Assembly (NCBI GenBank): GCA_024641335.1
Contig: JAHEDG010000003.1
Location: forward strand, 65,586 to 103,324
From: Candidatus Zixiibacteriota bacterium
GTDB lineage: Bacteria; Zixibacteria; MSB-5A5; UBA10806
Direction: 5' to 3'
Length of the DNA: 37,739 nucleotides
The position numbers and the translations under genes are program-made. Below, piece after piece: positions 15,606-37,739 of this stretch (position 1 is the first letter of the stretch; each line of letters begins with the position of its first letter). Under the pieces are notes generated by a model. The model saw nothing but the letters and a program-made list of their open reading frames with translations, was not told the origin of the DNA and made no database searches.

Positions 15606-15660
15606 TTTGATCCCGGTTATCTGATAATTTTCCTCTTGCTGAAGAGGGAAAAAATTTAAT

Positions 15661-16043
15661 AGCAGGCCGGGCGGCCGCTTTATTCGGCTAAAACCGGATA
15701 GGGAGGAAAGTCCGAGCTTTCAAGGGCGAGGATGCCTCGTAACGCGAGGGGATTCGATTCGTAAGGGTCGGGTCACGGAAAGCGCCACAGAAAATATACC
15801 GCCCGCAAGGGTAAGGGTGAAATGGCGGTGTAAGAGACCACCGGGTCCCGCGAAAGCGGGATCGCATGGCAAGCCCCATCCGAAAGAAAGGCCAAATAGG
15901 AGGAGAGAGGCTGCCCGCCTCGCTTGATCCTCGGGTAGGCCGCTTGATCTTGATGGTGACATCGGGACCAGATAGATGGCCGCCGTCCCGTGGCGATCTT
16001 CGGATTGTTTCGGGATACAGAACTCGGCTTACAGGCCTGCTTT
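15661..16043 (+). ncRNA. rnpB: RNase P RNA (class A)
   Basis: Catalytic RNA of RNase P, which removes 5' leaders from tRNA precursors. Terminal arms AGCAGGCC (15661-15668) and GGCCTGCT (16034-16041) pair as P1. Universally conserved blocks are visible in order: GAGGAAAGTCCGAGCT (15703-15718), CCACAGAAAATATACCGCC, AGGGTGAAATGGCGGTGTAAGAG, the ATGGCAAGCCCC...AAGGCCAAATAGG stretch, AGATAGATGGCCGCCGTCCC, and finally ACAGAACTCGGCTTACAGG (16018-16036). Boundaries are set from the P1 pairing. It lies between lemA and recJ, 55 bases after lemA, with a small hairpin (about 15635-15650) in the gap. Confidence 0.96.
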
Positions 16044-16074
16044 TAATTAGAGATTGTAGATATTGGAGAAATAA

Positions 16075-36672: not shown

Positions 36673-37227
36673 ATGAGTAAATGGCTAAAGGGTTTATCGA
36701 TAGTCAGCAGTTTTGCGGTATTGGCGGCTATTTTAATAATTGCCGGCTGCTCGCAAAACTTGTCGTTGGAGCCGAATAGTCCTCAAACGTTGAGCCTTAA
36801 CAAGGATCTTGCCTTATCCGGCTCCAGTTCCGATCCGCTAAGTTCTACAGTATCAGCGGAGAAGGATATCTCGGCCGATCTGGGCGGAACGATAGTCATC
36901 GACCGCGATGGTTATCGGCACGAGTTTACTGTTCAGGCTCTTTCTATCTCCGGCGATACGCATTTCACAGTTGTATCGTCAAAGGATAGAATAGGTCTGA
37001 AAGAAGCGGTAGTATTCGAATTCGGTCCTGATGGTTTGGTTTTTTCCACTCCGGCCGACCTGATATTCGAAATAGCCGAATTGAACGCCAAGGCGTCGTC
37101 GGCTAAGCTTTACTATTATGATCCGGGAACCGGGAAATGGGTTTATCAGGGTTCGAGCCTGATCGACGGTTCCGGGAAAGCGGTATTTCCGATTTCGCAT
37201 TTCAGCAAGTACGCCATCAGCGATTGA
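36673..37227 (+). CDS. Lipoprotein with a ZU5-like beta-sandwich domain
   Basis: A 184-residue protein with a perfect AAGGAGG at 36662-36668. Signal peptide and lipobox: SSFAVLAAILIIAGC (Cys26). A Ser/Leu-rich linker (about 27-65) leads into a beta domain starting ADLGGTIVIDRDGYRHEF, with EAVVFEFGPDGLVFSTPADLIFE, then KLYYYDPGTGKWVYQG and a closing FPISHFSKYAIS. The GG.I.I..dG, FxFGPxGxxFxxPxxL and HFSxYxI pattern resembles ZU5-type domains of bacterial surface proteins. Function unknown. An excellent terminator follows. Confidence 0.75.
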   Translation: MSKWLKGLSIVSSFAVLAAILIIAGCSQNLSLEPNSPQTLSLNKDLALSGSSSDPLSSTVSAEKDISADLGGTIVIDRDGYRHEFTVQALSISGDTHFTVVSSKDRIGLKEAVVFEFGPDGLVFSTPADLIFEIAELNAKASSAKLYYYDPGTGKWVYQGSSLIDGSGKAVFPISHFSKYAISD

Positions 37228-37274
37228 TCAAGGTATTCCAGGTAAGTTGTAAAGAAATCAGAATATTTTAATAG

Positions 37275-37307
37275 ACAGGGTCGGCGGGGAGCCGGCCCTG
37301 TTTTTTT
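37275..37307 (+). terminator. Strong intrinsic terminator after the ZU5-like lipoprotein
   Basis: ACAGGGTCGGC (37275-37285), loop GGGGA, GCCGGCCCTGT (37291-37301): an 11-bp stem with one G-U pair, followed by a seven-T run (37301-37307). Confidence 0.92.
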
Positions 37308-37353
37308 ATTCGCCATGGCGGGTGGGGCGGGAAACGGGGCGGTCTCGAACAAG

Positions 37354-37596
37354 ATGCATTATGTTTATATTCTTAAGAGCGAATTTGATGGCGGTTATTA
37401 CTACGGTTCGACATCAGACCTGAACAAGCGAATCAGGGAGCATAATGCGGGGCAGGTAAAGTCAACGAAATCCCGCAGGCCATTGCGCCTGCATTACCAT
37501 GAAGAATACGCCGCCAAAGGTGAAGCCCTGAATCGGGAGCGGTATTTCAAGAATCGCTCTGGTTACAAGTGGCTTAAGCGGCAGGCGATTATTTAA
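37354..37596 (+). CDS. GIY-YIG domain protein (UPF0213/excinuclease subunit C-like)
   Basis: An 80-residue single-domain GIY-YIG protein. The start is placed at ATG 37354 because the domain begins at once: MHYVYILKSEFDGGYYYGSTSD, where YVY and YYG are the GIY...YIG equivalents. LNKRIREHNAG carries the conserved Arg/His pair, and the metal-binding Glu occurs in KGEALNRERYFKNRSGYKWL. Such small proteins are common in Bacteroidota and candidate phyla. A nuclease activity is presumed from the family; their cellular role is unclear. Confidence 0.85.
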   Translation: MHYVYILKSEFDGGYYYGSTSDLNKRIREHNAGQVKSTKSRRPLRLHYHEEYAAKGEALNRERYFKNRSGYKWLKRQAII

Positions 37597-37616
37597 TAGA
37601 CCCAGCTGTTTTTCCG

Positions 37617-37645
37617 TTTCCATTTTAATTAAAACCTGCTATAAT
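37617..37645 (+). promoter_or_regulatory. Sigma-70-like promoter in front of a structured RNA at the window edge
   Basis: TTTCCA (37617-37622), 17 bases, perfect TATAAT (37640-37645). The expected transcription start is about 37652-37653, exactly where GGAGAGGTGCC begins. Confidence 0.6.
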
Positions 37646-37652
37646 GGCCGAC

Positions 37653-37739
37653 GGAGAGGTGCCGGAGCGGTCGCGCCGCATTGCCCTTTGGGCAAGCAGG
37701 CGTCCCTGCCCCTGACCCGGTAATAATAGATGGCGGGTG
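37653..37739 (+). ncRNA. 5' part of an unidentified structured RNA (tRNA-Ser-like first 20 bases), cut by the window edge
   Basis: The first bases, GGAGAGGTGCCGGAGCGGTC, look like the acceptor and D-arm start of a bacterial serine tRNA. What follows does not fold as a tRNA: no seven-base anticodon loop and no GGTTCGA T-arm within reach. Instead there are consecutive hairpins: GCGG/CCGC (37667-37679), TTGCCC-TTT-GGGCAA (37681-37695) and GCAGG-CGTC-CCTGC (37696-37709). It could be a tRNA interrupted by an insertion, or another stable RNA. The 3' half is outside the window. Confidence 0.35.

Follow-up and report, generated by a model that had tools for sequence, protein, structure and literature searches.

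A hairpin-broken tRNA-Ser(CGA) copy and a small GIY-YIG nuclease gene at a contig end: a candidate homing-type element of bacterial tRNA genes

The nearest working analogue of the locus described here comes from phages. Two reports describe SegB of phages T4 and T6 as a free-standing GIY-YIG homing endonuclease encoded in a tRNA gene cluster, which cuts in the tRNA region and is able to spread with, and amplify, tRNA genes; in T6, tRNA-Tyr has been amplified in tandem together with segB (PMC13096335, PMC2988022). According to one of them, the co-localization of SegB with tRNA genes favors no isotype (PMC13096335). The T4 segB gene is co-oriented with the surrounding tRNA genes, and a co-oriented GIY-YIG gene among tRNA genes is what our locus shares with it. 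SegB differs in being 221 aa long, against 80 aa for the protein studied here, and the region common to both is the GIY motif only (26% over 53 aa, E 0.09; a profile match of 24 columns); membership of the SegB family was therefore rejected, as there is no sequence relation beyond this motif. Moreover, SegB is a phage gene, whereas genes of the present type are chromosomal, form lineages that follow tRNA identity, and lie alongside hairpin-broken tRNA copies.

Among solved proteins, profile comparison places our protein closest to the UPF0213 proteins 1zg2 and 1ywl (E ~1e-16), which likewise consist of a single GIY-YIG domain, followed by SLX1 and the catalytic domain of I-TevI; we know of no tRNA-linked layout for either UPF0213 protein. 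Group I introns with GIY-YIG endonucleases exist, some of them in tRNA genes, and they resemble the present locus in that a conserved tRNA gene is the site of a GIY-YIG gene, selfish in the introns and putatively so here; a weak match to the NCBIfam model "group I intron endonuclease" is seen in 13 of 20 relatives of our protein. However, no intron model matched the locus, and because genes of this type lie beside an intact tRNA, no splicing is needed. In REP sequences with RAYT and in the double-hairpin elements of fungal mitochondria, too, short palindromes go together with a nuclease or mobile DNA, but these systems involve another type of enzyme or other genomes, and are without tRNA copies. 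No account of hairpin-broken tRNA copies accompanying chromosomal GIY-YIG genes was found in searches of open-licence PubMed Central papers.

The window (the whole 37,739-nt stretch analyzed, from a Candidatus Zixiibacteriota genome, G000) spans bases 65586-103324 of contig C32 and ends on the final base of that contig, in an assembly of 98 contigs; its relevant features are collected in Table 1. Between the terminator of an upstream gene and a promoter-like site lies a short ORF that matches Pfam family PF01541 with an E-value of 1.5e-15 and qualifies as a member of the GIY-YIG superfamily, with Y4, Y15, G17, R25, and E49 invariant across 20 relatives. Its start codon was placed from relatives. 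The predicted protein is barely larger than the GIY-YIG domain, and no extra DNA-binding domain was seen in it.

The window's two longest exact matches to the tRNA-Ser(CGA) gene of the related genome G001 lie on either side of this ORF: nt 1-21 of the tRNA downstream of it, and nt 22-38 in its leader, the latter a 17-nt match of which ~0.0004 would be expected by chance. The two pieces adjoin precisely at position 21|22 of the tRNA. The ten bases that open the leader recur, 415 bp on, as the last ten of the contig, and the window therefore probably ends inside a second 415-bp unit; another 10-nt repeat was found in the same 540 bases, which weakens this 10-nt repeat as evidence. Judged from the letters of this one contig end, the simplest reading would be a tandem array in which each unit comprises promoter, tRNA nt 1-21, hairpin insertion, tRNA nt 22-38, and GIY-YIG ORF, with unit 1 lacking its front and unit 2 truncated by the contig end. 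Past the contig end, a second nuclease ORF followed by an intact tRNA-Ser(CGA) would be expected.

Table 1. Features of the window at and near the contig end (positions count from the first base of the window).
Feature	Position	Strand	Remark
Upstream marker gene, putative lipoprotein, outside the element	36673..37227	+	39% identity to the G001 gene; no Pfam match
Terminator-like hairpin of the upstream gene	37273..37303	+	also ahead of the intact tRNA in G001 and G003
Leader of nuclease ORF 1: ATGGCGGGTG (recurs at 37730) ... tRNA-Ser nt 22-38 ... CAAG	37315..37353	+	
Exact 17-nt copy of tRNA-Ser(CGA) nt 22-38, 5' part of the anticodon arm	37333..37349	+	
GIY-YIG nuclease ORF 1, 80 aa from ATG 37354	37354..37596	+	PF01541
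Promoter-like site of the tRNA-Ser gene	37617..37645	+	promoter scan; -10 aligned in G001/G003
Truncated 5' portion of the broken tRNA-Ser(CGA) copy, with insertion	37653..37739	+	stops at the contig end
tRNA-Ser(CGA) nt 1-21: 5' strand of the acceptor, D-arm to D-loop	37653..37673	+	exact identity
D-loop hairpin insertion	37673..37703	+	z -3.47, 1/200 shuffles
Probable leader start of a second nuclease ORF	37730..37739	+	10-nt exact repeat of 37315-37324

An earlier note on this stretch, made from its letters alone, had proposed a near-consensus promoter feeding a multi-hairpin RNA that begins like tRNA-Ser. The promoter-like site (TTTCCA-17-TATAAT, with TG ahead of the -10) agrees with consensus at 10 of 12 positions. 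A scan of 37000-37739 found one sigma-70-like site where shuffled sequences average 0.9, so the scan by itself is not above chance; what lends the site credibility is the TATATT found at the aligned position of the intact tRNA-Ser(CGA) gene in both G001 and G003. The tRNA-Ser-like start is borne out by the exact identity with nt 1-21, as is the absence of a T-arm after it within the window, and the right half that was said to be missing is indeed cut off by the contig end. The note's three tight hairpins fared less well. One hairpin, in the D-loop, is clearly non-random, at -19.6 kcal/mol and equalled in a single one of 200 shuffles, and ~36 more bases follow it before the contig ends. The full 87 nt fold no better than random (z -1.24; 20 of 200 shuffles), and the third hairpin is doubtful because its bases resemble the start of the next unit. 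A new stable RNA, one of the identities that had been suggested, is thus unsupported, as the whole stretch folds like its shuffles.

The tRNA, tmRNA, and Rfam models that had been proposed as checks were run on the in-window part, and none matches the stretch. ARAGORN called no tRNA and no tmRNA over the window, and at gathering level Rfam returned RNase P alone, located elsewhere (bacterial RNase P RNA class A, a full-length match at 15659-16047, plus strand). When the Rfam threshold was relaxed to E<=10 over the last 1240 bases, the sole match touching the stretch was antisense and at chance level. An intact tRNA, a tmRNA, or a known RNA family was rejected on these searches of the in-window part: the tRNA-Ser cloverleaf is represented in the window just by nt 1-21 and, separately, by nt 22-38, with no full anticodon arm or T-arm. 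An intron, another earlier suggestion, is likewise unsupported, since neither group I or II models nor any other Rfam covariance model matched the in-window part of the stretch, and in relatives the nuclease gene adjoins an intact tRNA and does not lie inside one that needs splicing. A tRNA gene interrupted by an integrated element came close without being exact: a tRNA-Ser(CGA) copy is broken in its D-loop, and it forms a unit with the GIY-YIG gene.

When the locus is compared with genomes of the same family (G001 and G003), it is apparent that this is the native site of the tRNA-Ser(CGA) gene. The upstream gene is 39% identical over its full length to the gene that stands just before the intact tRNA-Ser(CGA) in G001, and by reading, an equivalent gene likewise precedes the intact tRNA in G003; a Pfam search of the window's copy gave no match. 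A search with the last 150 bases matched 39 of 98 genomes at E<=0.01, mostly through query bases 50-84 (up to 37673), and tRNA-Ser(CGA) stands at that place in 17 of the 19 relatives' loci that were read. The tRNA-Ser genes of the source genome, whose stated completeness is 100%, are Ser(GCT), Ser(GGA), and a Ser(TGA) of unusual form; an intact Ser(CGA) was not found elsewhere in its assembly. A search of the same genome for a tRNA-Ser 3' half gave eight pattern matches, of which the best two are the known genes for Ser(GCT) and Ser(GGA); a Ser(CGA) half was not among them, three weak matches aside. The only other match to the stretch in this genome at E<1, on contig C24, reads like part of a coding region and was rejected as a further copy. 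Two other tRNA genes were seen in passing: a tRNA-Ser(UGA) with an unusual D-arm, present in G000 (contig C56, L048; a low tRNA-model score of 37 bits) and in G007 (L189:1665-1751), and an ARAGORN-called tRNA-SeC (selenocysteine) gene on G000 contig C69 (L050:1000-1094). What the stretch contains, then, is the native tRNA-Ser(CGA) gene in a broken copy, its D-loop split by a strong-hairpin insertion, paired with a UPF0213-like GIY-YIG ORF.

The same architecture, in which a small same-strand nuclease gene has a broken copy of a tRNA on one side and an intact copy on the other, is found at many tRNA genes in many phyla. Our first survey compared the window's GIY-YIG protein with 194 genomes at E<=1e-8 and gave 103 matches, all of whose neighborhoods were examined. 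An intact same-strand tRNA lies within 400 bp in 61 of the 103, against ~0.9% expected by chance for a co-oriented neighbor; antisense-only neighbors number zero, and 52 of the 103 loci also carry a partial copy of the neighboring tRNA. The 61 tRNA-linked loci are spread over 46 genomes and involve tRNAs for Met, Gly, Asp, Ala, Ser, Asn, Val, Pro, Leu, Thr, and Tyr. A second survey, of named genomes and limited to the best 80 of 171 relatives, gave 51 loci with a co-oriented tRNA within 400 bp, none antisense-only, and 44 with partial copies, in Calditrichota, Ignavibacteria, Bacteroidota (several Pedobacter isolates), Cloacimonadota, Omnitrophota, Patescibacteria, and others; the two surveys overlap by at least two loci (L238 and L254). 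Among these best 80 of 171, the closest relatives of the window's protein (L198-L215) have a tRNA-Ser neighbor in 16 of 18 cases, with no tRNA called at L201 and L204. The viral collection gave a single relative, L278; no tRNA was found in the 400 bp around it, of which just 132 bases are available on the left. Distant matches were seen in 18 phage records.

The association also holds when it is approached from the tRNA side. In this reverse test, 132 genomes were searched for tRNA-fMet copies with a D-loop hairpin, ignoring the nuclease, and 14 places in nine genomes were returned, against none for a reversed-pattern control. A GIY-YIG ORF or its start adjoins the fMet copy in all nine. Seven of these genomes were already in the nuclease match list, and G045 and G098 were judged by eye from the DNA: in G045, the GIY-YIG start beside the fMet copy is identical to that of a different match in the same genome, one located where a contig ends, whereas the start in G098 continues into masked bases.

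Two layouts are seen: broken copy, nuclease, intact tRNA, the intact tRNA being downstream at 23 of the 61 tRNA-linked loci, and intact tRNA, nuclease, broken copy, with the intact tRNA upstream at the other 38. Broken copies mostly preserve their outer end, whether 5' or 3', exactly, with 86 of 111 fragments 100% identical to the neighboring tRNA. The breaks fall in tRNA loops, the 79 inserted segments being divided among the anticodon arm (36), the D-loop (23), and the variable arm or T-loop (20), and for 38 of the 79 the fold is more stable than that of 95 or more out of 100 shuffles. Examples include a D-loop palindrome in tRNA-fMet copies, a four-pair hairpin in place of the anticodon arm in tRNA-Gly copies, and double hairpins in the tRNA-Ser copies of Pedobacter relatives. 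Across nine distinct Gly copies every hairpin pair is kept, and one pair is changed on both sides in three of them (2 of 500 shuffles do as well); the corresponding test on six Asp copies was not significant. Tandem broken tRNA-Gly(TCC) copies are present at both the end of G000 contig C44 (L113:2777-2903) and the start of contig C50 (L058:1-560); the two contigs probably adjoin, followed by tRNA-Gly, a GIY-YIG ORF, and a 3' broken copy.

The nuclease was compared with its tRNA and its host on a tree built from 61 GIY-YIG proteins over 86 columns, leaving out two duplicates and any row shorter than 50 residues. The labels of the window, L161, and the second copy of L095 were set by hand (the intact tRNA being out of reach), and L100 was relabelled Asp on reading. 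The tRNA amino-acid label changes 16 times on the tree, against 39.9 in 200 shuffles (minimum 35), and the host-family label 42 times, against 46.8 (minimum 43). The nuclease therefore tracks the tRNA and hardly the host family, giving the target-specific lineages independent of host that would characterize a homing gene, on a poorly resolved tree in which 32 of 58 inner branches are left open. Occupied and empty alleles, a second such mark, are also found. The Ser(CGA) site is occupied in G000 and empty in G001 and G003, and for tRNA-Gly(TCC), within one family, G001 has two empty copies while G002 and G000 have full units. G003 (L302:1400-1591) has what looks like an orphan remnant, a broken tRNA-Gly copy followed immediately by an intact tRNA-Gly; there is no nuclease gene in between, and no nuclease match was found for it, part of the upstream sequence being masked. 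A search of G003 for an empty tRNA-Asp locus returned only a tRNA-Ala. Five ORFs contain in-frame stops, all of them among the 61 tRNA-linked loci (Fisher p 0.078). On G000 contig C41 (L059:1447-1809), a GIY-YIG ORF with two in-frame TAG codons lies just downstream of tRNA-Asp and represents a decaying unit.

Location, layout, break sites, lineage specificity, and patchy presence are matters of observation; as to what they reflect, we rather favor a free-standing, homing-type nuclease element that lives in tRNA genes together with hairpin-broken tRNA copies. Such a selfish unit would be transcribed from the tRNA promoter, and its nuclease would cut unit-free tRNA genes of the matching kind. 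The flanking tRNA sequences could then act as homology arms, so that repair either copies the unit in or yields tandem copies, and the intact copy would maintain the host's supply of that tRNA. The loop hairpins of the broken copy probably destroy both the nuclease site and the tRNA function of the copy. The weak point of this model is that the intact tRNA of the same unit should be cut too if the nuclease cuts that tRNA gene; it would escape only if the recognized site also spans native flank, from which the unit separates the intact copy at loci where nuclease and tRNA nearly touch (for example L203, L211, and L230). The loci with no tRNA within 400 bp (42 of 103 in the first survey and 29 of the best 80 of 171 in the second) also count against homing, as does the small size of a protein hardly larger than its GIY-YIG domain.

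The strongest rival, which we regard as unlikely, is a toxin-antitoxin-like pair, in which the GIY-YIG enzyme would cleave one tRNA and the RNA of the hairpin-broken copy, made from the tRNA promoter, would serve as an uncleavable decoy or inhibitor. It would suit the broken copies, which are always of the neighboring tRNA and co-oriented with the nuclease, and therefore presumably co-transcribed, as well as their tandem occurrence, the nuclease lineages that track tRNA identity, and the hairpins in place of loops, most often in the anticodon arm. However, 38 of the 61 loci have the intact tRNA upstream, and the broken copy there, if any, is mainly a promoterless 3' piece, and G003 retains a broken copy with no nuclease match. 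The relatives returned by the PDB search also argue against it, being either what we take to be DNA nucleases or UPF0213 proteins of putative function.

We give slightly less credence to a structure-dependent DNA element, in which a UPF0213- or SLX1-like nuclease would act on the broken copy's own hairpin or cruciform and drive tandem duplication of the unit with no homing. The ranking of the solved proteins, the perfect palindromes held by most broken copies, and the tandem copies are consistent with this, but it leaves unexplained why nuclease lineages track tRNA identity across phyla. An equally slim chance attaches to the idea that the transcript of the broken copy binds the tiny GIY-YIG protein and confers specificity for the tRNA gene (or the tRNA), as guide or as inhibitor; were that so, the system would amount to an RNA-associated nuclease element of a new type, in which a domain-only nuclease is made specific for one tRNA.

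More improbable still is an assembly artefact, the contig end being a chimera of tandem units or of strains and the true locus a normal tRNA-Ser(CGA). The position at a contig end of a metagenome-like assembly would invite this reading, as would the poor assembly of tandem units (contig C44 also ends in tandem broken tRNA-Gly copies), but the layout is repeated in independent genomes, including Pedobacter isolates, and the source genome has no intact Ser(CGA). Chance neighborhood and decay, with ordinary deletion or spreading palindromic repeats having broken tRNA-Ser and the GIY-YIG gene merely nearby, could appeal to two G000 GIY-YIG genes (L060 and L061) that lie among dispersed palindromic repeats away from tRNAs, but is very improbable given the strict co-orientation far above the expected ~1%, the tree that tracks tRNA identity and, above all, the reverse test.

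If the homing reading is right, a minimal nuclease element for single tRNA genes, which are among the most conserved sites, would be present in many bacterial chromosomes, including those of cultured Pedobacter, and each kind of tRNA would have a lineage of its own. The element would extend the story of SegB and phage tRNAs to bacterial chromosomes, and would be one way in which tRNA pseudogenes and tandem tRNA arrays arise in bacteria. This raises the questions of how a domain of ~80 residues recognizes one tRNA gene, and why its companion copies are broken by loop hairpins. For annotation, tRNA-like fragments and small "GIY-YIG family" ORFs beside tRNAs should be considered as one unit, and contigs tend to end there.

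Finally, two near-identical copies of a more distantly related GIY-YIG gene (L060 and L061) lie 758 bp apart at the end of G000 contig C66, in short palindromic repeats and with no adjacent tRNA.
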